The position numbers and the translations under genes were made by a program. The notes below the pieces were generated by a model. The model ran no database searches. It was not told the origin of the DNA and saw nothing but the letters and a program-made list of their open reading frames with translations. A stretch of DNA of 48,588 bases from Xanthobacter autotrophicus. GTDB lineage: Bacteria; Pseudomonadota; Alphaproteobacteria; Rhizobiales; Xanthobacteraceae. The stretch is from the NCBI RefSeq assembly GCF_030015065.1, contig NZ_JAIVFN010000019.1:1-48588 (forward strand). The letters run 5' to 3'. Every line of letters begins with the position of its first letter. The stretch's first letter is position 1. Shown in pieces: positions 5,107 to 44,593 of this stretch.

Positions 5107-5109
5107 GGG

Positions 5110-25735: not shown

Positions 25736-25813
25736 CCGCTCGTCGCGTGAAGCCGCTCCCGAATGGCCGCGGCGGGCGAAACGACCGTCCGCTTCACAGC
25801 TGAGAGACCTGCA

Positions 25814-26902
25814 ATGCCTCGCTTCCTGGATGCGGAAGAGCTTGACCTGCTGGCCAGTGGCGCCTGGATTCTCGGGACCGGAGGCGGCGGATCGCCCTAC
25901 GCTTCCCACCTCGTCGCCCGGCAATTCTATGAAGACGGCGGCCGGATCGCCCTGCTCGACCCGGACGAACTGGCCGACGACGATGTCGTGGCCGTGGTCT
26001 CGACCATGGGTGCGCCGCTGGTGTTCCAGGAGCGAATGACCGATGCCGACTTCGCCTTGAAGCCGGTGCGGGTCATGGAGGCTTTCCTGGGCCGGCCGTT
26101 CCGCGCCGTGATGACGGTGGAGATCGGCGGCTGCAACGCGTTCCAGCCGCTGCTCGTCGCCGCGGCATCGGGCCTGCCGGTGGTGGATGCGGACGCCATG
26201 GGCCGGGCCTACCCCGAGGCCCAGATGCAGACCTTCTCGATCGCCGGACTGGATATGGTCCCGCACGTCGTTTCCGACATCCGCGACAATGACGTCATCA
26301 TCCCCACCGCGTCCGGCTGGCATGAGATGGAGCGCGTGCGGCGCAAGGTCTGCACGGAATACGGATCGGTCGCGACCACCTGCCAGGCCCCGCGCACCGG
26401 CGCGGAGGTGAAGCGTCACGCGGTCCTGCGCAGCCTGTCGCACGCCATCGCCCTGGGGCGCGAGGTGCGCCGCGCGAAGACGGCGCATGAGGATCCGGTC
26501 GAGGCGACCGTGGCCGCCGCCGGCGGCAAGCGGCTGTTCACCGGCAAGGTGATGGATGTGCAACGGCGCACGACCGAGGGCTTCCTGCGCGGCTCCCTCA
26601 GCCTCGCGGGCCTCGGCGACGATGCCGGCGTGTCCTTCGACATCGCCTTCCAGAACGAGTTCACCATCGGCCGGCGCGACGGCACGGTGATCGTCACGAC
26701 GCCCGACCTGATCTGCGTGCTCGACACCATCTCGGGTGAGGCCATCGGCACGGAGAGCCTGCGCTACGGCCAGAGGGTCACGGTCATCGCCCTGCCGTCG
26801 CAACCGATCCATCGCAGCGCCGAGGGGCTGCGGCATGTCGGCCCACGCGCCTTCGGCCACGACGTCGATTTTCGCAGCGTCTTCGGGGAGGAGCCGGCAT
26901 GA
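25814..26902 (+). CDS. DUF917 (S-methyl-thiohydantoin desulfurase-like) protein
   Basis: A 362-residue protein with the DUF917 hallmarks: GAWILGTGGGGSPYASHLVARQ near the N-terminus, STMGAPLVFQER, PVVDADAMGRAYPEAQMQTF and the C-terminal PDLICVLDTISGEAIGTESLRYGQRV. Start ATG 25814 was chosen because the family N-terminus MPRFLDAEELDLLASGA begins there. The gene overlaps hyuA-like by 4 bp (ATGA). DUF917 proteins typically accompany HyuA-type proteins and are thought to act with them on hydantoin-like or related cyclic amide substrates. The exact reaction is not known for this one. Confidence 0.85.
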   Translation: MPRFLDAEELDLLASGAWILGTGGGGSPYASHLVARQFYEDGGRIALLDPDELADDDVVAVVSTMGAPLVFQERMTDADFALKPVRVMEAFLGRPFRAVMTVEIGGCNAFQPLLVAAASGLPVVDADAMGRAYPEAQMQTFSIAGLDMVPHVVSDIRDNDVIIPTASGWHEMERVRRKVCTEYGSVATTCQAPRTGAEVKRHAVLRSLSHAIALGREVRRAKTAHEDPVEATVAAAGGKRLFTGKVMDVQRRTTEGFLRGSLSLAGLGDDAGVSFDIAFQNEFTIGRRDGTVIVTTPDLICVLDTISGEAIGTESLRYGQRVTVIALPSQPIHRSAEGLRHVGPRAFGHDVDFRSVFGEEPA

Positions 26903-28449
26903 GCCGCATCGGAATCGACGTCGGCGGCACCAATACCGATGCCGTCCTGCTCGAAGGCGGCAAGGTGCTCGCGGCGCTGAAGCGGCCGACCACCGTCGAT
27001 GTCGCGGATGGCGTGCGTCAGGCGCTGGTGGATCTGGTCGCCGCGGCTGCCGGCCATCCGGCCCTGGGACGGATCGAAGCGGTGATGATCGGCACCACGC
27101 ATTTCACCAATGCCGTGGTGGAGCGTCGCCATCTGGACCGCGTCGCGGCGCTGCGCATCGGCTTGCCCGCCAATGCCGGTCTGCCGCCCTTCATCGGCTG
27201 GCCGAAGGACCTTGCGGCGGCCATGCGGGGAAGCACCCACATGGTGGGCGGCGGGCACGAGTATGACGGACGGGTCCTGGTGCCGCTGGATCGCGCGGCC
27301 GTGCGGCGCGAGGCGGAGCGCATCGCGGGGAGCGGCATCAGCTCGGTCGCCATCACCAGCGTGTTCTCGCCGCTCACCGATGAATGCGAGCGCGAGGCCG
27401 CGGAAATCGTGCGGGAAGTGATGCCCGCGGCACGCATCACGCTGTCCCACGAAATCGGCCGGATCGGCCTGCTCGAGCGGGAGAATGCGGCGCTGCTGAA
27501 TGCCGGCCTTCAGGGCCTCGCGCAGCGCACCACCGCCGCCTTCGTGCGGGCGCTGCGCGAGAGCGGCATCGCGGCGCCGCTTTATCTCACGCAGAATGAC
27601 GGCACCATCGTGCAGGGGGCGGTGGCCGAGCGCCATCCCGTCTATTGCTTCGCCTCAGGCCCCACCAACAGCATGCGCGGCGCGGCCTTCCTTTCGGGCC
27701 TGACCGATGCACTGGTGGTGGATGTGGGCGGCACGACCACCGATGTGGGCTGTCTCAAGGGCGGGTTTCCGCGCCAGGCCAATGCGATGGTCGAGATCGG
27801 CGGGGTGCGCACGCTGTTTCGCATGCCGGACCTGATCTCCATCGGCCTCGGCGGCGGCACCGAGATCGCCGATGACGGGCGCCGGATCGGTCCGGGCAGC
27901 GTCGGCTTCCGGCTGCCGGAGAAGGCGCTGTGCTTCGGCGGCGACACGCTGACGGCCACGGACATCGCCGTCGCGGCGGGACGGATCGCGCTGGGAGAGC
28001 CGGGGCGGGTGGGCACGCTGCCCCGTCCCCTGGTGGCCGACAGCCTTCTTCACATGGAACGCATGGTCGCCGATGTGGTGGACCGCATGAAGACCGATGC
28101 GGCGCCCATCCCCCTCATCGCTGTGGGCGGCGGCAGCTTTCTGGTGCCCGATCGCATGGAGGGGGTCTCGGAGGTGGTGCGCATCGAGCACCATGCCGTG
28201 GCCAATGCCGTGGGCGCCGCCATCGCGCAGGTGAGCGGCGAGGTGGACCGCATCTTCTCCGGTGTCGAGCGCGACGCGGCGCTCGAGGACGCGCGCCGGG
28301 AGGCGACGCGGCGGGCGATCGAGGCCGGCGCCGAGGCGGGCAGCGTGCAGACGCTCGACGTGGAGGATATTCCGATCGCCTATCTCCCCGGCAATGCGCG
28401 CCGCGTCCGCGTGCGCGTCATCGGGGAGATCGCGCGGCTCGCCGGGTAG
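26899..28449 (+). CDS. Hydantoinase/oxoprolinase family protein (HyuA-like)
   Basis: A 516-residue member of the ASKHA-fold hydantoinase A family. The N-terminal ATPase motif is GIDVGGTNTDAVLLEGG. ATITSVFSPL-type and LSHEIGRIGLLERENAALLNA segments follow, then the second phosphate motif VVDVGGTTTDVGCLKGGFP and SIGLGGGTEI. It is about the size of the short HyuA proteins that pair with DUF917 rather than HyuB. Expected activity is ATP-dependent cleavage of a cyclic amide or lactam, or ATP-dependent carboxylation as in acetone carboxylase relatives. The start overlaps the DUF917 stop. Confidence 0.88.
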   Translation: MSRIGIDVGGTNTDAVLLEGGKVLAALKRPTTVDVADGVRQALVDLVAAAAGHPALGRIEAVMIGTTHFTNAVVERRHLDRVAALRIGLPANAGLPPFIGWPKDLAAAMRGSTHMVGGGHEYDGRVLVPLDRAAVRREAERIAGSGISSVAITSVFSPLTDECEREAAEIVREVMPAARITLSHEIGRIGLLERENAALLNAGLQGLAQRTTAAFVRALRESGIAAPLYLTQNDGTIVQGAVAERHPVYCFASGPTNSMRGAAFLSGLTDALVVDVGGTTTDVGCLKGGFPRQANAMVEIGGVRTLFRMPDLISIGLGGGTEIADDGRRIGPGSVGFRLPEKALCFGGDTLTATDIAVAAGRIALGEPGRVGTLPRPLVADSLLHMERMVADVVDRMKTDAAPIPLIAVGGGSFLVPDRMEGVSEVVRIEHHAVANAVGAAIAQVSGEVDRIFSGVERDAALEDARREATRRAIEAGAEAGSVQTLDVEDIPIAYLPGNARRVRVRVIGEIARLAG

Positions 28450-28543
28450 CGCGGGGACGGATGGCCGGCGAGCGCCGATCGCCGGAGCGGCCCCCCTCCT
28501 TCGTCCAGCATGTTCCGATCTGACCTGCTTACAGGAACCGCAC

Positions 28544-29806
28544 ATGCACAATGATCTCAGTGAAGCGACGCCGGCCGGACAGGGACCGGCGGGTCGGAGC
28601 GTGTATCGCGAAGCCTCGCCCACGGAATTGATCTATATCGCCACGCGCATGATCGTCGTCAGCCGCAGCAGCATCTCCGGAACGATCGGCAGTGCGCAGT
28701 TCGAGGCGGCCGTCGCGCATCTCGAAGCCCGATACGGAATCCTGCGCGCGGCGGTCGAGGACGGGCATTTCGTGGAGCGGTCCGATGACCGCTCGGCGGT
28801 CGAGAGCTGGTTGCCCGCCGATAGCTGCTCCGCCGAGGCGCTGTACGCCCAGCTGCTGAATGCCGACCTCGACACGTCGAAGACGCTCTGCGCCATCCAC
28901 GTCATCGCCGCAGATGACGGGCTCGATGTCTTCCTGCTCACGTCCCATGCGATCACGGATGCGACCTCGCTGATCGAGCTGCATTCCTGTCTCGCCCACA
29001 TGTGCGACTGCGTCGTGCGCGGCGAGGCCCCGGCCCTCGGCGTGCAGCCGTTCCCAACCCCGGTCGACGATGCAGTGAGTTGCAGTCTGGCTGCGCTTGG
29101 AACGGATGCGCCGCCTTCTTCCTATACCGGAGTGTTCGCCGAGATTCCCATGCGCGCGACCCATGATGGCGGCCCCGTGACCCATCGGCTCGAGCGGGTC
29201 GTGATCGGGGCGGACGCGATGCATCGGATCAAGGAGGCGAGCCACGCAACCGGCTCTTCCGTGCACGCGCTCCTTTTGGCCGCGTTCGCTCTCGCCATAG
29301 GTGAGGTGGCGGACGGACGCCCGCGTCAGATTCTCATGCGATCATCGGTGGACATGCGCCGGCGGCTCGAGCCCCACGTTTCCCCCGAACTGGTCTTCAC
29401 GGCCATCACCGGGCACATCACGCCCGTTCCCGACCTCGACCGGCCCATGATCGAGATCGCCCGCTTCATCTTCGATGATATTCATGAGGGGCTGGCCAAC
29501 GGCAGCATCTTTCACGACTACATCAATTATCCGCGCGCATTCGGCAGCCCTCAGCAGGCGCCGGTCGCCATCAATGTTTCCGACATCCAGACGGTGCAGT
29601 TTCACTGGCCGGTCGAGCGGCTGAAAGTGACCGGATTCGAGTATGCGTTGGGCTGGATGAAGAAATTCCCGAATGTCTCCGTGTCGGTCTACGACGGTAC
29701 GCTGATCGCCAACATCGTCTATGTGGAAGAGTTCGCCACTCCGACAACGATCCGCGCCATCTCGGACGGCTTCGTCAGGAGGCTCGATTCGGTCTGCGGA
29801 CAATAG
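28544..29806 (+). CDS. Stand-alone condensation-domain acyltransferase (PapA5/alcohol acetyltransferase-like)
   Basis: A 420-residue protein of the CoA-dependent acyltransferase/condensation superfamily. The catalytic HxxxD reads SHAITDATSL (His135, Asp139), and the bridge region is RSSVDMRRRLEPHVSPELVF. The usual HHxxxDG has lost its first His and the Gly, as in some trehalose/phthiocerol acyltransferases. There is no carrier protein or adenylation domain nearby, so it probably transfers an acyl group to an alcohol or amine. It starts 94 bp after the HyuA-like gene at an ATG preceded by AGGAACC. Codon use is slightly less GC-rich than that of its neighbours. Confidence 0.75.
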   Translation: MHNDLSEATPAGQGPAGRSVYREASPTELIYIATRMIVVSRSSISGTIGSAQFEAAVAHLEARYGILRAAVEDGHFVERSDDRSAVESWLPADSCSAEALYAQLLNADLDTSKTLCAIHVIAADDGLDVFLLTSHAITDATSLIELHSCLAHMCDCVVRGEAPALGVQPFPTPVDDAVSCSLAALGTDAPPSSYTGVFAEIPMRATHDGGPVTHRLERVVIGADAMHRIKEASHATGSSVHALLLAAFALAIGEVADGRPRQILMRSSVDMRRRLEPHVSPELVFTAITGHITPVPDLDRPMIEIARFIFDDIHEGLANGSIFHDYINYPRAFGSPQQAPVAINVSDIQTVQFHWPVERLKVTGFEYALGWMKKFPNVSVSVYDGTLIANIVYVEEFATPTTIRAISDGFVRRLDSVCGQ

Positions 29807-29844: not shown

Positions 29845-31536
29845 TTATGTCCCCTTCGCGGTGAGCGGTACGTAACGCGGTGTCCAGATCTTGGCGCGCA
29901 GGCGCTGCTGGATCTGATCGACCGCGACGTCGGGCGCATCGCCGTCCCGGTGCGCCCGCATCGCAACCGCGAGGGCGACCTTTGCCGCGACCTCGCGCAG
30001 GGCGCTCACCGGGGGCAGAAGATTGTGCTTCGGGTTGTCGCGCGCCGGCGACGCATCTGCCAGCGCCTTCGCCGCCGCCATGAACATGCCATCCGTCACG
30101 CGGCTGGCACCGACCGCAAGAACGCCGAGGCCAACTCCGGGAAAGATGTAGGAATTGTTGGTCTGGTCCACCTTGAAGCGGGTGCCGTCGCGCAGGAGCG
30201 GGGGAAACGGGCTGCCGACGCCCACCAAAGCCCGCCCGTCGGTCCAGACCTCGATATCCGCCGGTGTCGCTTCCGCGCGTGAGGTCGGATTCGACAGCGG
30301 AAAGATGACCGGCCGCTGGTTGCACTCGGCCATGGCGCGCACCACCGGCTCGCCGAAGGCGCCGGCCTGGCCGGAGACACCGATCAGCACGGTCGGCCGG
30401 GCATTGCGCACCACGTCGAGGAGCGCAATCTTGTCGGGATGTTCGAGCGTCCAGCCTTCGATCGCCCGCCTGCTCTGCACGAAGGGGGTCTGGAATGGCG
30501 CAAGGCCGGGCATGCTTTCCATCAGCAGCCCGTCACGATCGATCATGAAAAAGCGTTGTGTCGCCTCGCTTTCCGACAGGCCGGCATCGCACATGGCGGA
30601 ACGGATCAGGCCGGCGATCCCGCAGCCGGCCGAACCGGCGCCGAACACCGCCACCCGCTGCTCGGTCAATGGCACGCCGGTGACATTGATGGCCGCCAGC
30701 AGGGTCCCGGTCGCCACCGCCGCCGTGCCCTGGACATCATCGTTGAAGGTGCAGAGCCGGTCGCGATAGCGCTCCAGGAGGCGCGTCGCATTGTCCTTCG
30801 CGAAGTCTTCCCATTGCAGGAGGACCTTGGGCCAGCGCCGGATGACGGCGCAGACGAAGGCCTCGATGAAGTCGTCATAGGCCTGGCCGCGCACCCGCTC
30901 GTGGCGCCAGCCCACATAGAGCGGGTCGGCGAGGCAGTCGGCATTGTCGGTCCCGACATCGAGCAGGATCGGCAGGGTGGTGGCGGGATGCAGGCCGCCG
31001 CAGCCGGAATAGAGCGCGAGCTTGCCGATGGGGATGCCCATGCCGCCCGCCCCCTGGTCTCCCAGCCCCAGGATGCGCTCCCCGTCGGTCACGACGATCG
31101 CCTCCACCGCGTCGAAGCGCGGCTGCGCGAAGATCTGGTCGAGCCTCGACTGGTGCGGAATGCTGAGGAAGAGGCCCCGCGGCTTGTGGTAGAGGCGGCT
31201 GAACTGCTGGCAGCCGGCGCCGACCGTCGGCGTGTAGACGATGGGCAGCAGCTCTTCCAGGTTCTCCACCAGCGTCGCGTAGAACAGGGTCTCGTTGATG
31301 TCCTGCAACTCCCGCAGGAAGGCATAGCGTTCGAGATCGGTCTCGAACTGGCGCAGCGACTGCAGGGCGCGGGAGATCTGCTCGTCCAGGGTCGAGACAT
31401 GCGGCGGCAGCAATCCGTGCAGATGGAAAGCGTCGCGCTCTTCCTCGGAGAAGGCCGTGCCCTTGTTGAGCTGGGGGTCGGCGAGCAGTTCGTACCCGCT
31501 CAGCGCGGTGGCCATCGATGCCGTCGCCTCAGACAT
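29845..31536 (-). CDS. maeA: NAD(P)-dependent malic enzyme
   Basis: A 563-residue malic enzyme of the MaeA class. The catalytic tyrosine region is IVYTPTVGAGCQQFSRLYHKPRGLFLS. Divalent-metal ligands lie in LQWEDFAKDNA and CTFNDDVQGTAAVATG. The dinucleotide fold is VAVFGAGSAGCGIAGLI. It decarboxylates malate to pyruvate in the cytoplasm. AGGAGAG precedes the ATG. It is the last gene of the minus-strand operon that begins with dld, 11 bp after the CocE-like gene, linking the pathway to pyruvate and reducing power. Confidence 0.93.
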   Translation of the reverse strand: MSEATASMATALSGYELLADPQLNKGTAFSEEERDAFHLHGLLPPHVSTLDEQISRALQSLRQFETDLERYAFLRELQDINETLFYATLVENLEELLPIVYTPTVGAGCQQFSRLYHKPRGLFLSIPHQSRLDQIFAQPRFDAVEAIVVTDGERILGLGDQGAGGMGIPIGKLALYSGCGGLHPATTLPILLDVGTDNADCLADPLYVGWRHERVRGQAYDDFIEAFVCAVIRRWPKVLLQWEDFAKDNATRLLERYRDRLCTFNDDVQGTAAVATGTLLAAINVTGVPLTEQRVAVFGAGSAGCGIAGLIRSAMCDAGLSESEATQRFFMIDRDGLLMESMPGLAPFQTPFVQSRRAIEGWTLEHPDKIALLDVVRNARPTVLIGVSGQAGAFGEPVVRAMAECNQRPVIFPLSNPTSRAEATPADIEVWTDGRALVGVGSPFPPLLRDGTRFKVDQTNNSYIFPGVGLGVLAVGASRVTDGMFMAAAKALADASPARDNPKHNLLPPVSALREVAAKVALAVAMRAHRDGDAPDVAVDQIQQRLRAKIWTPRYVPLTAKGT

Positions 31537-31547: not shown

Positions 31548-33341
31548 CTACCGCTGGCCGGTGCGCTTGAGCTCGATGAAGGTGTCGGGACCGTAATGAA
31601 GGGTATTGCGTGCGTAATAGGGCGGCACCTGCATGTCGAACTGCGCGTGCCCGTGGCTCACGTCGCTGCGCAGGAGATCGGTGCGGCTGGCGATGTCGAG
31701 GCGCAGCCGCTCGCCCGGCTTCAACACCACGGGCTGCGGCGTGAGGCTGAAGCGGAGCGTCACCGGCACGCCGGGCACCAGCGGCTCGGGCGCATCGATG
31801 TCGATGGCGATCTCGGTCGCGGTGGAACGCGCCGCGTCGATCCTGCGGCAGGCGGGGCGGATCGCGCCCATGGACAGGATCTGGTAGCCGCCGTCGGCCG
31901 CGACAATGCCGGTGCGGGCCACCACGTAGGAATCAATCTCGTTGCAGCTGAAGGACAGGCTCAGCGTCACAGGCCCGGTCAGCTCCGTCTCTTCCTCTAC
32001 TGGCAGATCGAAGGTGAGGCGCTGGCTCTCCACCTCGTCGAAGCCTGCCGTCACGATGGCACCGAGGGGCACCGCCGCCCATCGGTTCGCCCCGCCTTCG
32101 CCCGGCGCGCTGTCGAGGCGATGGGTTGCAGCGTCGGCGCCATTGGAGGCCGGGTACAGGCGCAGCGCCGTGCTGCCGGGCAGCGGCCAGTCCGGCGCGC
32201 GACGGTAGTCCTTCGCCCCTTCCGTCCAGTATCGCACCCGCGGCTGCGCGGCATAGCCGTTGTCGGCGCCGTAGACCAGATGGTCGAAAAAGGCGAGCGC
32301 CTCCAGTTGCCAGGCATAGACCGGCAGGTCGTAGGTCGCCGGACCGACGATCAGCCAGCGGCGATCCTTCGGCGTGCCGGCATTCTCGAACAGATCGTAG
32401 GCGCCGAACTGGTGCAGGTTGAGATAGCCTGCATTCTGCACCACCACGAACGGCACCTCGATGTCCCCCAGCGCGCCGGACGGGCCGGACGGCAGCACGC
32501 TCGTCGCCCGGGTCTTGCCGTCGAGCATGAGGCCGGCGAACAGGCGGCGCGCCTGCGGCGCCGGCACCTGCCGCTCGAAGGTCCTCATGATCCGCGCCAT
32601 GCGCTTCTTCAGCTGCGGCCACCACACATGCTTCAGGGGCGAGTTGGTGATGTGGCTCACCACCGCGCGCAGCAGCGGGGGCACGCGAAGCCTGAACTGC
32701 AGGGGCGTGAAGTTCGCCCCCATCCAGAGCGAGAAGAAATCCGGCTGCGGCGCGCCGCCGAACATGGCGATGTGGCGGAAGTAGTCCGTGCACATCTCGT
32801 TGGTGAAGAAGCCCTTCAGGGCCGGCGGGCGAAGGCGCGCCACCTGCGGCTGGGTCAGCCCGTAATAGGAGGTGCCGAACAGCACCACCTGCCCGTCGCA
32901 CCAGGGCTGGGTCGCCGCCCACTGGATGACTTTGGCGTGGTCCTCCACATCCGTGTTGTTGAGATAGACGGCATCGTCTCCGCCGGAACGACCCATGCCA
33001 CGGCGGGTGACGATGACATGCGCATAGCCGCGGTCGGTGAAGACCGCCGGGCTGCCTGTCTCGTTGTTGCCGGCCGGGACGCCGGCGGCCTGCAATTCCT
33101 TGGAATAGGCGGCGAAGCAGACGACCGCAGGATAGCGGCCCGGTGCCTTGGGCACATAGACATCGGCCGCAAGGCTGATGGACGGCGCCACCTCGACCAT
33201 CTGGTCCGCGAGAACGCGGCAGCCGAGCCCCGACTTCGCGGCGGGGCCCGGCGTCCAGCCCGCCAGCTGCGGGCCGAACAGGCCGCCCTTCGGCGCGATG
33301 AGATTGTCCCAGAAGCCCGGCTTCCCGTTATCGGCCGTCAT
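31548..33341 (-). CDS. CocE/NonD-family hydrolase with an altered catalytic triad
   Basis: A 597-residue protein of the Xaa-Pro dipeptidyl-peptidase/cocaine-esterase family. It has the alpha/beta-hydrolase core, with nucleophile Ser158 in LFGTSYYG and the oxyanion Tyr79 in CFAAYSK, and the C-terminal jelly-roll domain (VTLSLSFSCNEIDSYVVARTGIV to FDMQVPPYYARNTLHYGP). The family's acid GWxD reads NAGYLN at 303-308 and the histidine motif GPWxH reads GPATYD at 333-338, so Asp and His seem to be missing. It may be a binding protein or use another triad. The start is ATG 33341, where family similarity begins and GGGGAGAAC lies upstream. It follows the NHLP-like pair by 53 bp. Confidence 0.85.
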   Translation of the reverse strand: MTADNGKPGFWDNLIAPKGGLFGPQLAGWTPGPAAKSGLGCRVLADQMVEVAPSISLAADVYVPKAPGRYPAVVCFAAYSKELQAAGVPAGNNETGSPAVFTDRGYAHVIVTRRGMGRSGGDDAVYLNNTDVEDHAKVIQWAATQPWCDGQVVLFGTSYYGLTQPQVARLRPPALKGFFTNEMCTDYFRHIAMFGGAPQPDFFSLWMGANFTPLQFRLRVPPLLRAVVSHITNSPLKHVWWPQLKKRMARIMRTFERQVPAPQARRLFAGLMLDGKTRATSVLPSGPSGALGDIEVPFVVVQNAGYLNLHQFGAYDLFENAGTPKDRRWLIVGPATYDLPVYAWQLEALAFFDHLVYGADNGYAAQPRVRYWTEGAKDYRRAPDWPLPGSTALRLYPASNGADAATHRLDSAPGEGGANRWAAVPLGAIVTAGFDEVESQRLTFDLPVEEETELTGPVTLSLSFSCNEIDSYVVARTGIVAADGGYQILSMGAIRPACRRIDAARSTATEIAIDIDAPEPLVPGVPVTLRFSLTPQPVVLKPGERLRLDIASRTDLLRSDVSHGHAQFDMQVPPYYARNTLHYGPDTFIELKRTGQR

Positions 33342-33394
33342 GTGCGTTCTCCCCCGTCTCGGGCCCGCCGCATCAGGGCGCGGCACGGGGCGTC

Positions 33395-33763
33395 CTACAA
33401 TTGCGAGATATCGAGGCCGGTTTTCTTCTGCGCCGCCAGCCGCATCTCGCGCACCACCCACTTCTGCTTGTCATCGGGAATGAAGAAGCCGCCGATGCCG
33501 GACGAAAAGAGCAGGTCGAAGACCCGCTCCGTCACCTCGGTGAGCGCCAGCTCCAGGTCCGTCCCGGACTCGGGCTTCGGGGGCACCATGATGACGATGG
33601 TGTCTTCCGCCTGCTCGACGATCTCGATCTTGAAATCCGGGCCCGGCGTGTAGCCGAACTCCGCGCAGACCACCCCGACCGGGTCGGCGAGGAGCTTCGC
33701 GCGGTAATCGGGATCAGTGGCGATGCGCTCGTAATTCTTCTCGACGAAATCGGCATTGCTCAC
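33395..33763 (-). CDS. NHLP-like small protein B (nitrile-hydratase-alpha-related)
   Basis: A 122-residue acidic protein starting at a GTG that overlaps the stop of the previous gene (GTGA), which fixes the start. Residues 5-62 follow the NHLP leader pattern: FVEKNYERIATDPDYRAKLLADP, a Gly/Pro turn FGYTPGPDFKI, then the beta strand EIVEQAEDTIVIMVPPKP. The remainder (SSGIGGFFIPDDKQKW to DISQL) is not Cys-rich and has no double-glycine cleavage site. The metal-binding CxxCSC of nitrile hydratase is absent. It is probably not a bacteriocin precursor in the usual sense. The role is unknown; a complex with protein A or the CocE-like protein is plausible. Confidence 0.7.
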   Translation of the reverse strand: MSNADFVEKNYERIATDPDYRAKLLADPVGVVCAEFGYTPGPDFKIEIVEQAEDTIVIMVPPKPESGTDLELALTEVTERVFDLLFSSGIGGFFIPDDKQKWVVREMRLAAQKKTGLDISQL

Positions 33764-34095
33764 GGCTGGTCTCCCTCGGTGCGGGCCGCGTTGCGCAGGG
33801 CCAGCAGCTTGAATTTGGCGGCCACGGGCACGAGCCAGATGAACAGGCCCTGGCTGGACCAAAGGTCCATCTGGTTGAGCGGCGTCGCGGCAGGTGGGGC
33901 ATGGGGCGCGCGGGCGGGCGGGATGGTGAAGTAGACCCGGTCGCGCCGCTGCACCACCACCTTCACCTTGACGCCGGCCGGCACCTCCACGCCCATGGTC
34001 TTGAGCGCCTCGACGGGGTCGCTCTCCACCTGCGCAGCAAACACGTCGTCGGTCCACACGCGCCGCGTCAGTTCCTTCTCGAAATCTCCGGACAT
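33760..34095 (-). CDS. NHLP-like small protein A (nitrile-hydratase-alpha-related)
   Basis: A 111-residue protein. Residues 4-60 give the same pattern as its neighbour: FEKELTRRVWTDDVFAAQVESDP, VEALKTMGVEVPAGVKVKVV, then DRVYFTIPPA. This is the DP...LPxGVxVxVV...LPPA signature of NHLP leaders. The tail is proline-rich (ARAPHAPPAATPLNQ) and then hydrophobic (GLFIWLVPVAAKFKLLAL, 83-100), possibly membrane-associating. No Cys, Ser/Thr-rich or GG core is seen. It lies 61 bp after the ThDP-enzyme gene and is coupled to protein B. The family assignment rests on pattern recognition alone. Confidence 0.68.
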   Translation of the reverse strand: MSGDFEKELTRRVWTDDVFAAQVESDPVEALKTMGVEVPAGVKVKVVVQRRDRVYFTIPPARAPHAPPAATPLNQMDLWSSQGLFIWLVPVAAKFKLLALRNAARTEGDQP

Positions 34096-34156: not shown

Positions 34157-35764
34157 TCACGGCTCGCGATTGATGATCAGGAAGCTCGGGCCCTGATGGG
34201 CGAGCGCGCGGGCGAGCACGTCGCCGACGCTTTCGGCAGCGTCGATCGTTTCGACGCGGGCGCCGAAGCCCTCGGCGATCTTGCGCATGTCCACATCGGG
34301 ATCGCTGAAGTCCAGGCCGACGAAGTGCGTGGTCGCGATGGTCGTCCCCATCACGTTGCACCACAGGTCCTTCAGCAGCCGGTACTCATTGTTCACGAAA
34401 CAGATGAAGATGGACGGGATGGAATACTTCGCCGCCGTCCAGAGTGCGTGGATCGAGAACAGGCTTCCGCCGTCGCCCACGAAGCAGGCGGCATGCTTGC
34501 CGCTCGCCAGGCCGATGCCGACGCCCAGTGGCAGGGCCCAGCCCAGCCCGCCGCCGCGCGGCGAAAAATGCACGTTCCGGTACCCCAGGCTCACCGCCAT
34601 GTCCTGGACGATGGCGTCCTCGGACGAGCCTTCGGTGACCACATGGGTCTCCCGATCGAGATGGCGCAGCACGGCGAGGATCAGCGCATCGCTCGCGTGC
34701 GATCCGGAAGCGGGGTATTTCGCGTCCAGAGCTGCCTCATCGATCGTCTGTGCGGAGACTTGCGCCGTGTCGGCGCCGAGCGCTGTCGCCAGCGCGTCCA
34801 GAGTCGCATGGATGTCGCCGAGCACGGCCATGTCGCAGGGAAAATCGAAGCCGAGCTGGCTGGCTGCCGGCGCGACCTGGATGACCTGCAATTCCGGCGG
34901 CAGCGCCTGGAGACCGTCATAGGTGAAACTGTCCACCTTCTCGCCGATCAGCAGCATGGTGTGGTAGCGGCCGAGCGTCTCGTTGATCGCTTTCGTGGTG
35001 GGCGGAAGCTGGCCGCGGAAATTCGGATGCAGCGGATCAACCGTGCCCTGCACATGGAAGGGCGCGGCATAGATGTCGGCCCCGAGTGCGGTGGCGATGC
35101 GGCTGACGGCGTCGATGCCGTGCGCCGCGCCCACCGCATAGTCGGCGACGATGGCGAGCTTGCCCCTCGGCACCGCTGCGAGAGCAGCGGCCACCTCGCC
35201 GATGGCGCGCGGCACCGTATCCTCGATGATGCGCGTCTTCTTGAACGTCGTATGCTCGGTCTCCTCCAGCATGAAGTTCATGGGGATGGAGAGGAAAACG
35301 GGGCCGGTCGGCTGGAGCCGCGCATGCAAGTAGCAGCGCTGCAGGGCGACGGCGAGGTCATCCGTGCGCGTTACCTCATAGGCGTATTTGGTGGCGGTCT
35401 CCGCCAACTGGACATTGGGCGCGCCCAGCACCGGATTATGGATGAGGAAGCGGGAATCCTGCTGCCCGTTGATGACCAGCAGCGGCACCCCGGACATGAG
35501 CGCGTTGCGCATGTTGAACATGCCGTTGGCGAGGCCCGGATAGGTATGGAGGCTGACGATGGATGGCTTGCCGGTGATCATCGCGTAGCCCGCGGCGATG
35601 CCGACCGCGCTCGATTCATGCAGCGACAGGACATAGGTGGCCTGCGAGGCCGCCACCGCCGCGAGGAAGGTGGTCTCCGTGGTTCCGGGATTGCCGAAAA
35701 CGAACGGAATTTCATAAGTCTCAAGAAAATCCTGAATGAGCTCGCCGCCGGTCCGTGTCGTCAT
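34157..35764 (-). CDS. ThDP-dependent decarboxylase, benzoylformate decarboxylase (MdlC)-like
   Basis: A 535-residue thiamine-diphosphate enzyme. FGNPGTTE (24-30) parallels the NPGSNE loop of benzoylformate decarboxylase. LHESSAVGIAAGYA holds the cofactor-activating Glu50. SLHTYPGLANGMFN holds His73, equivalent to the catalytic His70. The ThDP/Mg motif runs from GDG (430) to NN (458). It should decarboxylate a 2-oxoacid to an aldehyde, or ligate such units. Acetolactate synthase is less likely because no FAD-site features stand out. GGGGGGAG precedes the ATG. The upstream Dld would make the 2-oxoacid from a D-2-hydroxyacid. Confidence 0.87.
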   Translation of the reverse strand: MTTRTGGELIQDFLETYEIPFVFGNPGTTETTFLAAVAASQATYVLSLHESSAVGIAAGYAMITGKPSIVSLHTYPGLANGMFNMRNALMSGVPLLVINGQQDSRFLIHNPVLGAPNVQLAETATKYAYEVTRTDDLAVALQRCYLHARLQPTGPVFLSIPMNFMLEETEHTTFKKTRIIEDTVPRAIGEVAAALAAVPRGKLAIVADYAVGAAHGIDAVSRIATALGADIYAAPFHVQGTVDPLHPNFRGQLPPTTKAINETLGRYHTMLLIGEKVDSFTYDGLQALPPELQVIQVAPAASQLGFDFPCDMAVLGDIHATLDALATALGADTAQVSAQTIDEAALDAKYPASGSHASDALILAVLRHLDRETHVVTEGSSEDAIVQDMAVSLGYRNVHFSPRGGGLGWALPLGVGIGLASGKHAACFVGDGGSLFSIHALWTAAKYSIPSIFICFVNNEYRLLKDLWCNVMGTTIATTHFVGLDFSDPDVDMRKIAEGFGARVETIDAAESVGDVLARALAHQGPSFLIINREP

Positions 35765-35833: not shown

Positions 35834-37633
35834 TCAGCCGTCGCATCGGATGCGGCTTGGTGCAACGTTCTGTCCGCGCGGCATCCAGTGCGCGCATTTG
35901 GTGGTGCGACCGATCCCCGGATTGAATGCGTTGCAGGGATCGAGCGCCTTGAAATGGTCAACCATGGCGGGCTTGGCGAAGTAGAGATGCCCCACATTGT
36001 GCTCGGCGGGATATTCCGCGCCGCGCTCATCGAGGAGTTTCCACATGGCGTGCTCGATTTCCTCGCAATTGCTGCCCTTGGCAACGATATAGTCCTGGTG
36101 GAAGACGTGGCAGAAGAAGTGACCGCAATAGAGCTTGCGGATCAGGTGCTTGTTTATCTCTTCCGGAAGCGTCTCGAACCAGTTTTCGTCGTTGCGGGGG
36201 AGCGCGATGTCCAGCGCGACGATATCCTCCACCTCCTTGTCGTGGACCGCGCGGTAGCGGATGGCGGCGCCGGCGGCGGCGAAGCGGTGCAGGAAGGCCT
36301 TGTCGCCTTCATCGGGCGTGCACTCGAAATAGTCGCCGGTCTTCGAGGGGAAGATCGACTTGAGGTAAGCGCGCGCCTCCGCGATCCCGTCATCGCCCAT
36401 CTTCAGAAGAAGATAGTGCTCGAAGCGGTCGCGATAGTCGGTCATTCGCTTGGGTAGATGCTTGGGGAAGAGATGGCTCAGGGCCTGCAGCATCTTGGCG
36501 CTGAGGTTCTTCGACAGGAACGCGATCCGCCGGCAGAAATTGTCGAATACCGCCTGGAGCGCGAACAGCCGCGGGATCATATCGGTGCCGAGATAGTGGA
36601 TTACCAGGAAGGTGTCCTTGCCGTAGACCTCCGCGCAATCGAAGGAGTCCCGGTGCATGTACTCGCCCTCGATCGGCAGATTCTTGAAGCTTCCGAGGAT
36701 ATGGCGGCGGATGCCTTCGAGCTCGCCGGTGTCGTTCGAGCCGATGTAGAAGACGACCTGTTCCCTCTCCTTCGGGAAGGTGTCGAGGCGCACCGCCATG
36801 AGCATTACCTTGCCGGCGCTGCCGGAGGCCTCGAACAGGCGGCGCGGATCGGCATTGAAGCGGGAGGGGGTTGGCGCCTCGATGTCGCGCACATGGTCCG
36901 CATAGTCATGGTCCGAGGCGGCGCGGGAGGGGTCGTTGACGATGTCGTCGGGGGTGAAATCGCCGCTCTCGATCCGCCGAAGGATCGTCTCCGGGTCGTT
37001 GCCCAGCGCGATGCCCAGATGATTGACGAGATGCAGCCCGCCCGCCTCATCCAGCCGCGCGAACAAAGCGAGCTGGGTGAAGGCCGGGCCACGATGGATG
37101 AGCGCGCCGCCGGAATTGTTGCACACACCGCCGAACACCGAGGCGCCGATGCAGGACGAGCCGATCACCGAGTGCGGCGCCCGGCCGATCTTGTCGAGGG
37201 CCTTTTCCAGGTGGAACAGGGTGGTGCCCGGCAGGCACACCACCTGCGTCCCGTCGTTGATGAGGTGCAGGCCTTCGATGCGCATGGTGTTGATGAGCAC
37301 CACGCCACGATCATAGTCGTCCCCGTCGGGGGTCGAGCCGCCGGTGACCCCGGTGTTGGCCGACTGCATGATGACGATCTTGTCCGCCGCGACGCAGGCC
37401 TTCAGGACGCGCCACTGCTCCACCAGCGAGCCGGGCCGCACCACGGCGACCACCGGGCCGGAACCGAACCTTATGCCGGTGCAAAAGCGCCGCGTGGCCT
37501 CGGGGCTCGTCAGGACATGCGACTGGCCGACGACGTCCCGAAGCTCCGCGATGAGGGTTGCGTCGCCTCCGGCCGCCTCCCGCGCAGAGGCCTTGCCCGC
37601 CGGAACCGTCAGGTCGAGAAATGCAGCATCCAT
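35834..37633 (-). CDS. dld: Quinone-dependent D-lactate dehydrogenase (Dld)
   Basis: A ~599-residue peripheral membrane flavoprotein. The FAD-binding PCMH region shows RFGSGPVVAVVRPGSLVEQWRVLKACV and QSANTGVTGGSTPDG, then GASVFGGVCNNSGGALIHRGPAFT. The Dld-specific C-terminal cap includes HRFAAAGAAIRYRAVHDKEV and CGHFFCHVFHQDY, with the terminal DPCNAFNPGIGRTTK. It oxidises D-lactate, or a related D-2-hydroxyacid, and passes electrons to quinone. Start: the ATG at 37631-37633 lies ten bases after AAGGGGG. The ATG at 37642 is only three bases from it and is less likely. The C-terminal extension WMPRGQNVAPSRIRCDG is unusual. Confidence 0.93.
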   Translation of the reverse strand: MDAAFLDLTVPAGKASAREAAGGDATLIAELRDVVGQSHVLTSPEATRRFCTGIRFGSGPVVAVVRPGSLVEQWRVLKACVAADKIVIMQSANTGVTGGSTPDGDDYDRGVVLINTMRIEGLHLINDGTQVVCLPGTTLFHLEKALDKIGRAPHSVIGSSCIGASVFGGVCNNSGGALIHRGPAFTQLALFARLDEAGGLHLVNHLGIALGNDPETILRRIESGDFTPDDIVNDPSRAASDHDYADHVRDIEAPTPSRFNADPRRLFEASGSAGKVMLMAVRLDTFPKEREQVVFYIGSNDTGELEGIRRHILGSFKNLPIEGEYMHRDSFDCAEVYGKDTFLVIHYLGTDMIPRLFALQAVFDNFCRRIAFLSKNLSAKMLQALSHLFPKHLPKRMTDYRDRFEHYLLLKMGDDGIAEARAYLKSIFPSKTGDYFECTPDEGDKAFLHRFAAAGAAIRYRAVHDKEVEDIVALDIALPRNDENWFETLPEEINKHLIRKLYCGHFFCHVFHQDYIVAKGSNCEEIEHAMWKLLDERGAEYPAEHNVGHLYFAKPAMVDHFKALDPCNAFNPGIGRTTKCAHWMPRGQNVAPSRIRCDG

Positions 37634-37888
37634 GGCACCCATTCCCCCTTGCGTAGCCTGTGGCCCCCGACAGGATTCATCGAGCGGCTAGATCGGGCGG
37701 TCCCGCTGTCGGCCGGCCAATGCGGCTTCCGACAAGGATCGATGGCCTCAGCCTATTTTGATGCCCGCTGTGCAGCATCGCCAGAAGTGGTGATGCTGCA
37801 CATTCCCGCGGCGCCCCATTCGCGGGCTGTTGCCCCGATCGAACCGCTCATGGCCGATCTACCAGCCCCGATGGTCCGGCGCCCGTTC

Positions 37889-38563
37889 TCAGGCCCGCAT
37901 TCCGCTCGTCTCTCTCCTGCTCTTGAGCAGCGCTTCCATGAAGATTGGCTCCCAGGTGAGGATGTGGTTCCGCATAAGCTCCCGGATGCCGTCCACGTTG
38001 CCCGCCTCGGCGAGGGCGATGAGCTGGTAATGTTCGCCCACGGATGCGGCCTGCCGCTCGAGCCCCGCGCGCGACGAGATGCCGTGGAGACGCATCTTGT
38101 CGCGCAGGCCCATGGCCATCTCCGTGAGCAGTGCATTCTCGGCCGCGCCGATGAAGGCCATGTGGAAATTGCGGTCGTTCTCCAGGTAGCCGTAGAGATC
38201 GTCATTCTCCACGGCCGTGCCGATCGCTTCGGCGAGGCCGGTGAGCTGCTCGATGAGCTTTTTTTTCTTCCGCGGCTTGAGGGCGAACAGTTCGGCTGCG
38301 TGCACCTCGAGCAGGCTGCGCATGTCGAACAGGTTGCGCAGATCGTCCACCGTGGGCTCCACGACCTTGAACCCGCGATTGCGCATGGGCTCGATGAGGC
38401 CGGTACGTGCCAGCTCCAGCAGCGCTTCCCGCACGGGAGTCGTGGACACGCCGAGGTCGGCCGCCAGGGTCGGCACGGAGTACATCTTACCCGGGCCGCT
38501 TTGGCCTGAAATGATCTCCGACCTCACCTGCCGCAGCACCTGTTCACGCAAATTCGGATCCAT
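37889..38563 (-). CDS. GntR-family regulator (FCD type)
   Basis: A 224-residue regulator from MDPNLREQVLRQV. An in-frame start at 38596 would add 11 residues. The helix-turn-helix is YSVPTLAADLGVSTTPVREALLELARTGLIEPM. The FCD effector domain carries NDRNFHMAFIGAAEN and VGEHYQLIALAEAGN, with likely metal-binding Asp/His residues. A lysine cluster, PRKKKKLIEQL, interrupts the first effector helices. It sits between the dld operon and the divergent rubredoxin operon, and probably controls one or both. It is distinct from the paralogous GntR pair further left. Confidence 0.9.
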   Translation of the reverse strand: MDPNLREQVLRQVRSEIISGQSGPGKMYSVPTLAADLGVSTTPVREALLELARTGLIEPMRNRGFKVVEPTVDDLRNLFDMRSLLEVHAAELFALKPRKKKKLIEQLTGLAEAIGTAVENDDLYGYLENDRNFHMAFIGAAENALLTEMAMGLRDKMRLHGISSRAGLERQAASVGEHYQLIALAEAGNVDGIRELMRNHILTWEPIFMEALLKSRRETSGMRA

Positions 38564-38778
38564 TATCCGCCCATAGTTGGTGCCGCTGGGGCACAATTGG
38601 TAGCGCTCTACAATAATGCGTCACTGCGCGCCGTGCAAGCAACGCCAGCGGGGACGGCGCCTGAGATCGCGGGAAAAGTCGGCACTTTGGCCCCTGCATA
38701 AACTTTGCGCTTGCCGCCAGTGGCGCGCCAATCTACAACGTGACGTGTGACGCGCTACTGTAATGCAGGATACTCACC
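38564..38778. promoter_or_regulatory. Divergent intergenic region, GntR versus rubredoxin operon
   Basis: A 215-bp gap with no gene. Near the GntR start it contains TTGGTGCC-N4-GGGCACAA (about 38577-38596), an imperfect inverted repeat, and a second TTGGT copy 18 bp on. These are possible FadR-type half-sites. On the other side GTGACGTGTGACG is a short direct repeat before the rubredoxin start. Neither is strong, and promoter boxes are not clear. Confidence 0.35.
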
Positions 38779-39021: not shown

Positions 39022-39831
39022 ATGCCCAAATCCTTTGTGCTCCGGGCGAACGAGCGTGGCCACGACGTGATCTATTCTGACGGAAGCGCCTCGTCTTATG
39101 TGGCCGGCCACCCTGGCAGCTATATCGCCCGCGACTCCAGCTTCAACTTTCATCAATACCAAAGTGGGCGACCCGGCTTCGGCACCGTCCGCGTGTTCGG
39201 CGATGAAGTGTTCAATGGTGCCGGCTGCGGCTACAACATGCACCCGCACCATAATTTCATCATCTGCGCGTTCGTGCTGGAAGGCGAGCTGACCCACATC
39301 AACACCGCTGGCCGCGGCACCGTGGACCAGCTGCGGCAGGGCGATTACTATGTTTTCTCGGCCGGCTCGGGCGGCAAGCACTGCGAGCTGTCGATCAGTC
39401 CGGAGAACATGAACGCCATTTACCTGTGGCTCATGCCCGGCCAGCTCTATCTGCCGCCGAGCTACCATCGCGCCCACTTCGACATCCGCACCCGGCGCAA
39501 CCGGATCGCTCAGCTCGTGGGCGACGCGGACGGCGCGCTGCCGGTGTCTCAGGACCTGCGCGTCTCGCGTCTGGTGACCGACCGCGCCGGACGCTTCACC
39601 TACACCCCACGCACGCCGGAGCACGGCGTTTATGTGTTCGTCGCAGAGGGCGGCGCCACCGTGAACGACGTCGCGCTCGCGCGTCGCGACAGCCTGGGCA
39701 TCAGCGGCGTCGAGGCCCTCGCGATCGAGGCTCCCGACAGCTCCGACATCTTCTTCGTCGAGACCGCCATGCTCGACGATGCCCGTATCCGCGCCTGGGA
39801 AAAGGCCCACGGAGCCGACCTCCTCGACTGA
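39022..39831 (+). CDS. Pirin-like bicupin protein
   Basis: A 269-residue protein matching the pirin/YhhW group. GFGTVRVFGDEVFNGAGCGYNMHPHHNFIICAFVLEGELTH supplies two metal-binding His in HPHHN and a third in LTHIN. GDYYVFSAGSGGKHCELSI supplies the Glu ligand. The C-terminal cupin half (YTPRTPEHGVYVFVAEGGATVN) lacks metal ligands, as in the family. Bacterial pirins can oxidise quercetin-like flavonols or modulate other enzymes. GGGAGATAAACC precedes the ATG. Its place between rubredoxin and a tautomerase suggests a catabolic oxygenase or accessory role. Confidence 0.82.
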   Translation: MPKSFVLRANERGHDVIYSDGSASSYVAGHPGSYIARDSSFNFHQYQSGRPGFGTVRVFGDEVFNGAGCGYNMHPHHNFIICAFVLEGELTHINTAGRGTVDQLRQGDYYVFSAGSGGKHCELSISPENMNAIYLWLMPGQLYLPPSYHRAHFDIRTRRNRIAQLVGDADGALPVSQDLRVSRLVTDRAGRFTYTPRTPEHGVYVFVAEGGATVNDVALARRDSLGISGVEALAIEAPDSSDIFFVETAMLDDARIRAWEKAHGADLLD

Positions 39832-39867: not shown

Positions 39868-40446
39868 ATGCCGATCATGGACGTGCGCTATGCCGCCGGG
39901 ACGCTCGATGCAGCGGCGAAAGCCGATCTTGCCGCCTGCCTCACCGACGTGCTCATCAAGATGGAGGGCGGCGCCAACACACCCGGCGGGCGTGCGTTCG
40001 CCTGGGTGTTCTTCACCGCGTTCGCTGCGGATGACTGGTGGATCGGCGGCCGCACCGATGGGACCTACGTGACCGGTCCGGGCAAGTTCCTGGTCAATGT
40101 CTTCATCCCCGAAGGCTACATGAACGTCGCGCACAAGAACGAGGTTCATGCCTGGGTGGCGGAAGCGATCGCCGGGGCGACCGGCTGCTCCGATCCCGCC
40201 GGCAGCCTGCTCACCGTCATCAACGAGGTGACCGAGGGCAATTGGGGAGACGGCGGCCAGCCCATCAGCCTGGAATCCATCGCCAGGACGGTGGGCCAGG
40301 ATGGCGGCCCCCGGTCGCTCTGGTCGCGCGCCTATTTCGAGGCCAAGGCGCGGGCCATGGTGGCGGCGGGTTATCCGGGCGACACTGGCGGAATGCTGCC
40401 CTCGCTGCGGCCGCGGCTGCTGGCAGCGGCCGCAGACCCGGCCTGA
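39868..40446 (+). CDS. Tautomerase-superfamily protein, probably two beta-alpha-beta units
   Basis: A 192-residue protein starting MPIMDVRY, so the mature N-terminus is the catalytic Pro1 of the 4-oxalocrotonate tautomerase superfamily. The first unit, TLDAAAKADLAACLTDVLIKMEGG, is the expected helix. A second unit, KFLVNVFIPEGYMNVAHKNEVHAWVAEAIAGATG, starts without Pro. This matches the fused cis-CaaD/MSAD/MIF-like architecture, in which only one Pro is active. An Ala-rich C-terminal extension is added. The substrate may be a 2-hydroxymuconate-type or oxoacid enol. GGGAGACGAC precedes the ATG. Confidence 0.7.
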   Translation: MPIMDVRYAAGTLDAAAKADLAACLTDVLIKMEGGANTPGGRAFAWVFFTAFAADDWWIGGRTDGTYVTGPGKFLVNVFIPEGYMNVAHKNEVHAWVAEAIAGATGCSDPAGSLLTVINEVTEGNWGDGGQPISLESIARTVGQDGGPRSLWSRAYFEAKARAMVAAGYPGDTGGMLPSLRPRLLAAAADPA

Positions 40447-40548: not shown

Positions 40549-41610
40549 GTGACCGACCAGACCATCTTGGGCCATGTCATGGATCGCAGGCGCCTCCTTG
40601 GTAGCGCAGCCGTCCTTGGCGCGGCCGCCCTCCTTCCCCGCACCGCCCGCGCGCAGAGCGGCGAGCTCGTCGTCTCAAACTGGGGCGGCGACTGGAACCA
40701 GCGCATCGCCCAGGGCTTCGAGGAGCCGGCTTTCGCCGCCTCCGCCATGCGCATCATCCACGATCTCGCACCCGTGCCGGAGCGCAAGGCGAAGCTGCTG
40801 GCGGAGCGGCGCCTGCCGCGCTCCAGCGTCGATGTGACCTGGCTGAGCGACGCCGATGCCTATGAGATGAGCGCCCAGGGCGTTCTCGAAACCCTCGACA
40901 TGTCGCGCATCCCGAGCGCGAGCCACATCATTCCCTCGCTGCGGCGCCCCTATTTCATCCCCGCCGCCTATGGCGGCGTGGTGCTGATCTACAATCCCGC
41001 CCGCATCCCCGAGCCGCCGACCAGCTTTGCCGACCTGTGGAACCCGAAATACGCGGGGCGCGTCGGCATCATCGACCAGCTCTACTTCAACTACATCTAT
41101 GCCGCCGCGCTCGGCCACGGCGGCTCCATGAGCGATGTCAGCAAGGCGTTTCCGGCCCTGCTGGAGCTGAAGAAGACGGTGCAGCCGCGGCTCTATCCCT
41201 CTCATCAGGCGCTGGCCGCGGCGTTCAAGGCGGAGGAGGTCTGGATCTCCGTCAACTACAGCGCCCGCGCCATCCAGTGGGAGAAGGAGGGCTTGCCGAT
41301 GCGCTGGTCCTATCCGAAGGAAGGCGCCGTCGCCATCGCGTTCGGCGCGGGCATCCCGAAGCGGGCGCGCAACGTGGACGGCGCCTACGCCTATCTGGAG
41401 GCGATGATCCAGCCCAAGGCCATGGGGGCCATCTCCCTCGCCACCTCCTATGCCGTAGCCACCGACAATGCCGACGTCCCCGTGGAGGATCGCAAGCGCC
41501 TCGAATTCACCGCCGACCAGATCGCGAAGCTCAATTTCGTCGACTACCCGTATGCGGCGAAGAGCGACGCCCAGTGGATCGAGTGGTGGAACAAGGAATT
41601 CAAGGCGTGA
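40549..41610 (+). CDS. Polyamine-type ABC transporter substrate-binding protein
   Basis: A 353-residue extracellular solute-binding protein of the PotD/spermidine-putrescine class, from a GTG start with GAGGGGAA upstream. The Tat-like signal is MDRRRLLGSAAVLGAAALLPRTARAQ (11-36). The mature part begins GELVVSNWGGDWNQRIAQGFEEP and includes YGGVVLIYNPARIPEPPTSFADLWNPKYAGRVGI. The four transporter genes follow without gaps, the permease start overlapping this stop by GTGA. Ligands in this group include polyamines but also other cations and acids, so the substrate is open. Confidence 0.9.
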   Translation: MTDQTILGHVMDRRRLLGSAAVLGAAALLPRTARAQSGELVVSNWGGDWNQRIAQGFEEPAFAASAMRIIHDLAPVPERKAKLLAERRLPRSSVDVTWLSDADAYEMSAQGVLETLDMSRIPSASHIIPSLRRPYFIPAAYGGVVLIYNPARIPEPPTSFADLWNPKYAGRVGIIDQLYFNYIYAAALGHGGSMSDVSKAFPALLELKKTVQPRLYPSHQALAAAFKAEEVWISVNYSARAIQWEKEGLPMRWSYPKEGAVAIAFGAGIPKRARNVDGAYAYLEAMIQPKAMGAISLATSYAVATDNADVPVEDRKRLEFTADQIAKLNFVDYPYAAKSDAQWIEWWNKEFKA

Positions 41611-42530: not shown

Positions 42531-42532
42531 CC

Positions 42533-43372: not shown

Positions 43373-43381
43373 GGAACGAAG

Positions 43382-44440: not shown

Positions 44441-44444
44441 ACCC

Positions 44445-44494: not shown

Positions 44495-44593
44495 CCCCGC
44501 GCCTCATCCGGCGCCTGAACCTTTCCCTCGATCTGACGGCCGTCTTCCGCGGCCGGAGAAGCCGCACGCCCTTCAGCGCGCGAAAGACGGACC

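Follow-up and report, generated by a model that had tools for sequence, protein, structure and literature searches.

Two small adjacent genes, here called A and B, lie on the minus strand of a 48,588-nucleotide stretch of Xanthobacter autotrophicus DNA (assembly GCF_030015065.1, contig NZ_JAIVFN010000019.1; hereafter the window). The A/B pair is real and conserved, and it occurs in Pseudomonadota, Actinomycetota, Paenibacillaceae and one deltaproteobacterial bin. We found no description of it in a literature search of PMC. Judged from sequence, A and B may be the two subunits of an obligate heteromer that comes from the superfamily of the nitrile hydratase alpha chain and the nitrile hydratase-related leader peptides (NHLPs) and serves as the constant core of an aromatic-catabolism cassette. 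We hold this reading tentatively, at somewhat less than an even chance.

In the window the pair is part of a minus-strand run of six genes, which Pfam and NCBIfam assign in the following order:

35834-37642, minus strand: respiratory D-lactate dehydrogenase of the Dld family, first gene of the run
34157-35764, minus strand: thiamine diphosphate (ThDP) decarboxylase, subfamily T1, whose closest solved relatives are benzoylformate decarboxylases
33760-34095, minus strand: A, 111 residues, related to nitrile hydratase alpha and NHLPs, with the conserved tail N-x-M-D-L-W-x-S ... W ... K ... L-L ... R
33395-33763, minus strand: B, 122 residues, GTG start, paralogue of A, with the conserved tail D-x-L-x-S-S-G-x-G-G ... 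I-P-D ... W ... R ... R
31548-33341, minus strand: CocE/S15-fold protein, subfamily C1, serine motif present, Asp and His missing from the usual triad columns (start placed at the ATG at 33341)
29845-31536, minus strand: malic enzyme, final gene of the run

The A and B genes overlap by four bases (GTGA), and the remaining gaps in the run are 11 to 69 bases. An earlier reading of the window, made from its sequence only, had described an adjacent pair with a GTGA overlap, flanked by a CocE-fold protein and a ThDP decarboxylase; its coordinates and order were correct.

We searched for the pair in 84,980 species genomes with patterns from the B tail and confirmed 47 loci from 96 stretches. PLSDB added five examined loci (L003-L007), its other hits being repeats or partly plain nitrile hydratases. 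The 52 loci (47 plus the five from plasmids) are the set used throughout; many are closely related, so that counts are not independent, and several contigs are short. Whole-genome searches with a B profile matched 13 of 297 genomes of the order at E<=1e-5, seven of them strongly (E < 1e-47, own genome included), 1 of 394 in one actinobacterial class (the centre genome itself) and 2 of 398 in the phylum (own genome included), all of these being lower bounds, as at most 11 to 15 candidates were scored per genome. Five of the seven strong genomes of the order repeated loci of the species-genome scan and one, G253, was new. In its locus (L075, G253:C1:1336875-1353216) a malic enzyme lies about 3 kb from the A/B pair, the other reference partners being unmatched. 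The A/B pair is thus rare in the genomes searched.

Where it occurs, the pair is nearly always complete. A lies directly upstream of B in 51 of 53 B copies, and the two copies with no recognised A (L051 and L052) are partial B genes. Measured between the ends of hidden Markov model hits, 49 of the 51 pairs have A and B -5 to 35 bases apart, and the other two 105 and 131 bases. Loci were fetched through B, and lone A genes could escape this count. From the A side, however, a B match was present in all ten plasmid records with an A match, and in 13 genomes or records searched with an A profile all 14 strong matches fell on known pairs, with one further weak NHLP-like match (42.6 bits). Both proteins also take part in fusions. 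A Gulosibacter locus (L053:9533-10333) encodes A and B in a single 267-codon open frame that follows a nitrilase gene, and eight Streptomyces loci encode a Rid-A fusion in one open frame, the Rid domain being confirmed by Pfam in one of them (L005). In the public annotation of L005 and L006 the Rid-A protein is a 'RidA family protein', while single A or B copies are 'nitrile hydratase' or 'nitrile hydratase subunit alpha'. A Nocardia transvalensis locus (L025, 2288-12578) carries two facing A/B pairs separated by phenolic-acid-decarboxylase-type genes; upstream lie genes for an alpha/beta hydrolase and a copper amine oxidase, and genes of UbiD and UbiX type are found several kilobases off.

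The relation of A and B to known families was examined with curated models and with profiles of the families themselves. As single sequences, A and B scored 39.1 bits (E 4.9e-10) and 23.7 bits (E 3.1e-5) against the NHLP model TIGR03793 (cut-off 50.9), 16.6 and 20.8 bits against Pfam NHase_alpha (PF02979; cut-off 27.2), and 15.9 and 18.0 bits against the NCBIfam nitrile hydratase alpha model TIGR01323 (cut-off 249.85). The NHLP-Burk model TIGR03795 gave 15.3 bits with B (cut-off 41) and no match to A at E<=1. Family profiles of 48 rows each matched nitrile hydratase alpha chains at E 2e-9 (B) and 1.5e-9 (A), and the NHLP leader of known structure 8tb1 at E 1.8e-7 (B) and 4.4e-6 (A), which makes the proposed homology to both groups firm. 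The NHLP and nitrile hydratase kinship suggested by the sequence-only reading is therefore upheld by the family profiles, and the searches it had proposed with the NHLP and alpha-chain models gave matches that are real but sub-threshold. Compared directly, A and B match each other at E 1e-5 (a single comparison), and their joint alignment covers the conserved length including the tail; by sequence they are paralogues.

In printed alignments with nitrile hydratase alpha chains, the A and B profiles each match at two places, which flank what we take to be the position of the cysteine-claw stretch. The motif CxxCxC, presumably the claw that binds iron or cobalt in the alpha chain, occurs in none of the 52 A/B pairs. 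Although their profiles match within the alpha chain, A and B are about half its length and lack CxxCxC; an identity as nitrile hydratase itself was rejected on the missing claw and the short length. A beta-subunit gene was not recognised beside A/B, no search having been aimed at one. With the NHLP leader family (TIGR03793, precursors of the proteusin class of ribosomally synthesized and post-translationally modified peptides, RiPPs) the homology extends over the first 60 to 70 residues, and against the consensus in Table 3 of PMC2887384 motif 1 is recognisable in A and weaker in B. Unlike NHLP leaders, A and B lack motif 2 and a core, are paired with a different partner, keep their tails conserved and have catabolic rather than RiPP neighbours. 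NHLP-Burk pairs (TIGR03795, BMA_0021/BMA_0022) resemble A/B in being tandem NHLP-type genes that are fused at times, according to section 8 of PMC2887384, but the NHLP-Burk model fits poorly here, with B below its cut-off and A unmatched.

Conservation reaches at least 90% at 26 positions of A and 24 of B across the 52 pairs. Invariant polar residues are Q49, Y55, D77 and R101 in A, with K94 and E6 kept in 51 of 52, and R21, E47, D83, R105 and R108 in B. The tails are more uniform than the NHLP-like parts: mean pairwise identity is 0.63 over residues 74-101 of A against 0.56 over 5-60, and 0.69 over 81-108 of B against 0.50 over 5-62. The B value is inflated because the scan required matches to B-tail patterns; the A tail was not so selected. 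A double glycine is present in the tail of 51 of 52 B copies (G91 in 50, G92 in all 52) and is followed by conserved sequence. In A a GG occurs in only 9 of 52 and is not conserved.

Strict and relaxed patterns for motif 2 of NHLP leaders (the ELSDEQL...GG type) matched none of the 52 A and none of the 52 B sequences. In contrast, two neighbouring NHLP-type precursors from the same order (L077, G116:C17:41000-54000, at about 6434-7308) carry ELSDAQL or ELSGKDL, then GG, then differing tails; their genome has ten B-profile matches. In the window's genome neither YcaO (PF02624) nor LANC_like (PF05147) was matched at E<=0.001, NHLM exporters and radical-SAM enzymes not being among the models searched. 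Among 18 A/B genomes or records, five had a YcaO match, always far from A/B (on a different contig or megabases away), and no RiPP enzyme stood out among the recurrent A/B neighbours. The sequence-only reading had seen no RiPP enzymes and no core-like tails, and had proposed that the fold was recruited for work outside RiPP chemistry. Within the scope of these searches all three points agree with our results, the last through a pair conserved across phyla with conserved tails, no motif 2 and no obvious RiPP enzyme among its recurrent neighbours.

The genes around A/B were tallied by tblastn over the 52 loci, requiring at least half of the reference to align and ignoring A/B overlaps; family names come from scanning single members with Pfam and NCBIfam. 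Within 6 kb of B, CocE-fold proteins were found in 25 loci (one being the distant canonical member in L025), ThDP enzymes in 23, flavin adenine dinucleotide (FAD) monooxygenases in 20, alpha/beta hydrolases in 16, Rid proteins in 14, nitrilases and cupins in seven each, pirins and GST proteins in five each, phenolic acid decarboxylases, UbiD and UbiX-type flavoproteins in four each, and tautomerases in three. Anywhere in the fetched loci, the counts are 25 for FAD monooxygenase, 15 for cupin, nine for phenolic acid decarboxylase, eight for nitrilase, seven each for UbiD and pirin, and six for tautomerase. Of the 52 loci, 44 have at least one of six main partners (CocE, ThDP, nitrilase, alpha/beta hydrolase, FAD monooxygenase, Rid) within 6 kb. 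D-lactate dehydrogenase and malic enzyme each occur within that distance in only eight loci (malic enzyme on the same strand in seven), so that the 'D-hydroxyacid operon' in which the sequence-only reading had placed the pair is only one version of its surroundings. The six-gene order, which that reading had wished surveyed, does recur in five of the 52 loci (L008-L012), and L013 has the same six genes with the first two swapped.

Sequence comparison of the partners indicates that the flanking enzymes are exchangeable around a constant A/B pair. CocE subfamilies C1 and C2 are 26% identical and ThDP subfamilies T1 and T2 29%. In the 22 loci with both enzymes all four combinations occur (C1T2 in 11, C1T1 in eight, C2T2 in two, C2T1 in one), the window being a further C1T1. 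X. autotrophicus DSM 432 (L013) has T2 and strain AM5 (L008) T1, and the A/B and CocE proteins of both are near those of the window. In L047 the A/B pair comes from the nitrilase-side clade, yet its T1 enzyme is 82% identical to the window's. On a tree of the 52 A+B pairs, the label 'CocE/ThDP' (which takes in L015, with only CocE seen, and L047, a short contig with only ThDP seen) needs three changes, forced by well supported branches, and dropping L047 still leaves two distant CocE/ThDP clades. The nitrilases near A/B, six of seven compared, are 35 to 54% identical between groups and 62% between L007 and L040; the two closest pairs are 74% and 98% identical.

The partner families suggest that the cassette substrates are probably aromatic. 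The window's ThDP enzyme scores 290.6 bits against the benzoylformate decarboxylase model NF005485 (cut-off 493); subfamily T1 has benzoylformate decarboxylases as its closest solved relatives (195 bits), and T2 (from L006) resembles solved members of that family closely (566 bits). The nearest solved relative of the Neorhizobium nitrilase is NitA and that of the Paenibacillus nitrilase is cyanide dihydratase, and solved relatives of an alpha/beta hydrolase include hydroxynitrile lyases. The aromatic theme is drawn from the T1 and T2 enzymes, the ring-hydroxylase-type FAD monooxygenase, cupin, phenolic acid decarboxylase, UbiD, pirin, tautomerase, the NitA relative and the copper amine oxidase near A/B in Nocardia. 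Mandelate-type aryl catabolism offers the nearest known pathway, with T2 close to its decarboxylase and T1 more distant; the A/B pair and the CocE-fold protein are presumably no part of it. A cyanide or cyanohydrin theme was set aside, as it leaves the CocE/ThDP version uncovered, and rosmarinate and other named substrates were dropped for absence of evidence. Also dropped was the kendomycin cluster, which has a benzoylformate decarboxylase, while the passages of PMC8708025 that describe it do not mention nitrile hydratase, CocE or RidA. A scan of viral contigs with the ThDP protein confirmed no relative.

The CocE-fold protein had been described from the sequence as lacking its triad. It scores 182.6 bits against TIGR00976 (cut-off 66.3) and keeps the serine motif as GTSYYG; Asp and His are indeed missing from the usual columns, so that only part of the triad is lost. 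These columns, which we take to be those of the Ser-Asp-His triad, were set by lining up with L025, the sole canonical member, which is 22% identical and not adjacent to A/B. Across the CocE cluster, G-x-S-Y is present in all 26 members including the window's, and in 25 of 26 the usual columns hold neither Asp nor His; in the three C2 members an Asp stands a few columns before this point, which makes their alignment less sure. The nearest solved relative, 3ib3, has neither residue at those columns, by a weak second alignment piece. The Asp/His loss is a trait of a wider CocE subgroup, and a nearby LH common to C1 and C2 may supply a substitute base.

Under the heteromer reading, A and B would bind each other as subunits of one metal-free assembly, being neither a RiPP precursor nor the bearer of a cysteine metal claw. 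The cassette is sporadic and would probably have spread horizontally. Around its core would stand an FAD monooxygenase, a benzoylformate decarboxylase-type ThDP enzyme and a CocE-fold protein, each of the latter two in two subfamilies, or else nitrilases, an alpha/beta hydrolase and a Rid protein. Because the pair stays constant while the surrounding enzymes change family and fold, A-B may perform, or be required for, a step common to all cassette versions. In its simplest form it would be an acid/base enzyme that needs no cofactor and relies on invariant Asp, Glu, Arg, Lys, Gln and Tyr residues of both subunits. The invariant polar residues, the pairing of two proteins that keep different residues and the lack of conserved metal ligands suggest such an enzyme, although a docking protein fits these features nearly as well. 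If the rest of the explanation is true, a catalytic role would come close to an even chance and a docking role would be a lesser but serious possibility. The full claim, that A-B is a new cofactor-free two-subunit enzyme on the nitrile hydratase alpha/NHLP fold that carries out a step shared by unrelated aryl acid, ester and nitrile routes, is put forward as an unlikely one.

Several observations weigh against the heteromeric core and its enzymatic form. In eight of the 52 loci (L018, L027, L029, L030, L037, L044, L045 and L046) all six main partners are absent within 6 kb; L044 and L018 are short contigs, and L046 has a ThDP remnant. In L046, from the deltaproteobacterial bin, a frame at 8310-8948 near an intact A/B pair resembles, by eye, pieces of T1 with a phenolic-acid-decarboxylase-like end. 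The cupin, FAD monooxygenase, pirin and UbiD genes are often on the opposite strand or kilobases off and could be parts of other operons. For C2T1 the sole case is a short metagenome-bin contig of 5,596 bases (L039), and the cyanide-dihydratase-like Paenibacillus enzyme does not demand an aromatic substrate. AlphaFold models were weak for B (pLDDT 69.6, pTM 0.51) and for the A-B fusion (65.6 and 0.47), the fusion having been folded with A rows only and its B half thus almost without relatives. For A and B they predict three short N-terminal helices and a C-terminal helix, with much of the rest at low confidence. Foldseek searches with the B and fusion models returned nothing at E<=0.001; in the non-significant ranking the NHLP structure 9cjx came first for B, and the nitrile hydratase 3wvd first and 9cjx fourth for the fusion. 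Such weak models and this null result do not allow an active site or an A-B interface to be located. No His or Cys position reaches 90% conservation in the 52 pairs, which also fits a docking role. Finally, the motif-1 tryptophan of A, W14, is kept in 51 of 52 sequences and in our alignment is probably equivalent to the tryptophan of MprE7 that is buried in its enzyme, as described in PMC12455567; this favours docking.

A docking adaptor is the strongest competitor, doubtful on balance and still live. Here A-B would not itself catalyse a reaction but would serve the pathway enzymes as a protein handle, binding them and holding or activating them, much as RiPP enzymes bind NHLP leaders. An NHLP leader is a folded handle bound partly through helix 1 (PMC12455567), and the kept tryptophan, the Rid-A fusion in eight Streptomyces loci, the small size of A and B and their lack of conserved metal ligands are all consistent with such a role. 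A pair that stays constant while partners of unrelated fold change would be unusual for an adaptor fitted to a single enzyme, however; the many invariant polar residues also argue against it, and no interface could be modelled. A regulatory or protective partner, for instance one that inhibits or chaperones the hydrolase or decarboxylase, appears improbable. Small size and the presence of main-partner enzymes within 6 kb in most loci agree with it, but the partner folds are unrelated, the genes sit among enzyme genes in the operon, and we know of no precedent for such a role in the nitrile hydratase alpha/NHLP superfamily.

More improbable still is a carrier role, in which A-B would take up a reactive intermediate such as an aldehyde, perhaps as a Schiff base on Lys94 of A, and pass it between enzymes. 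Lys94 is almost invariant, aldehyde-making enzymes lie near (the benzoylformate decarboxylase-type ThDP enzymes and copper amine oxidase), and Rid proteins are known as imine deaminases; one conserved tail lysine may, however, be structural, and the nitrilase and cyanide-dihydratase versions need no aldehyde. Scaffold, aldehyde carrier and inhibitor were the roles offered by the sequence-only reading, which did not consider an enzyme; sequence data do not separate them. A two-peptide RiPP precursor of NHLP type was rejected as very unlikely on the family models, tail conservation, motif 2, YcaO and LanC, for the homology to NHLPs, the tandem and fused pairs noted in PMC2887384 and the B-tail GG are outweighed by tails conserved across phyla even past that GG, a missing GG in A, a motif 2 absent here and present in the L077 precursors, the fusions carried by A and B, and a genome with no YcaO or LanC match.

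Elsewhere in the window, the following genes accompany the run, the last four being recurrent cassette neighbours:

37889-38596, minus strand: GntR/FCD-type regulator, upstream of the run and on the same strand
23696-24178, plus strand: cupin protein, 97.5% identical over 160 residues to a relative in the fetched loci
24266-25735, plus strand: FAD-dependent monooxygenase of the aromatic-ring-hydroxylase type, 92.6% identical to the L011 copy
39022-39831, plus strand: pirin/quercetinase-like protein
39868-40446, plus strand: tautomerase-family protein

The GntR/FCD-type protein is a possible regulator of the run. The cupin and FAD monooxygenase genes, like the pirin and tautomerase genes, had been left unlinked to the pair by the sequence-only reading. 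Plus-strand genes at 25763-29806 encode an S-Me-THD-type protein, a hydantoinase A-type protein and a PapA-like acyltransferase, heading towards the end of the malic enzyme gene. An ABC importer (binding protein, two permease-type genes and ATPase) followed by a molybdopterin oxidoreductase with a ferredoxin-type end occupies 40549-48007. At 4001-6000 the AT skew is strong (0.34), and the surrounding DNA is GC-rich.

Proteins of this superfamily are usually read as metalloenzyme subunits or as RiPP leaders, and the A/B pair is neither. A pair that stays in place amid exchanged enzymes marks a component, which we did not find described, of a probable aromatic catabolism. It also cautions RiPP mining that an NHLP-like match is not necessarily a precursor, and it provides a clean case for asking what other uses the nitrile hydratase alpha/NHLP fold has found. 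Should A-B prove to be a cofactor-free enzyme, this fold, familiar as part of a metalloenzyme and as a RiPP leader, would gain a third life in catabolism.

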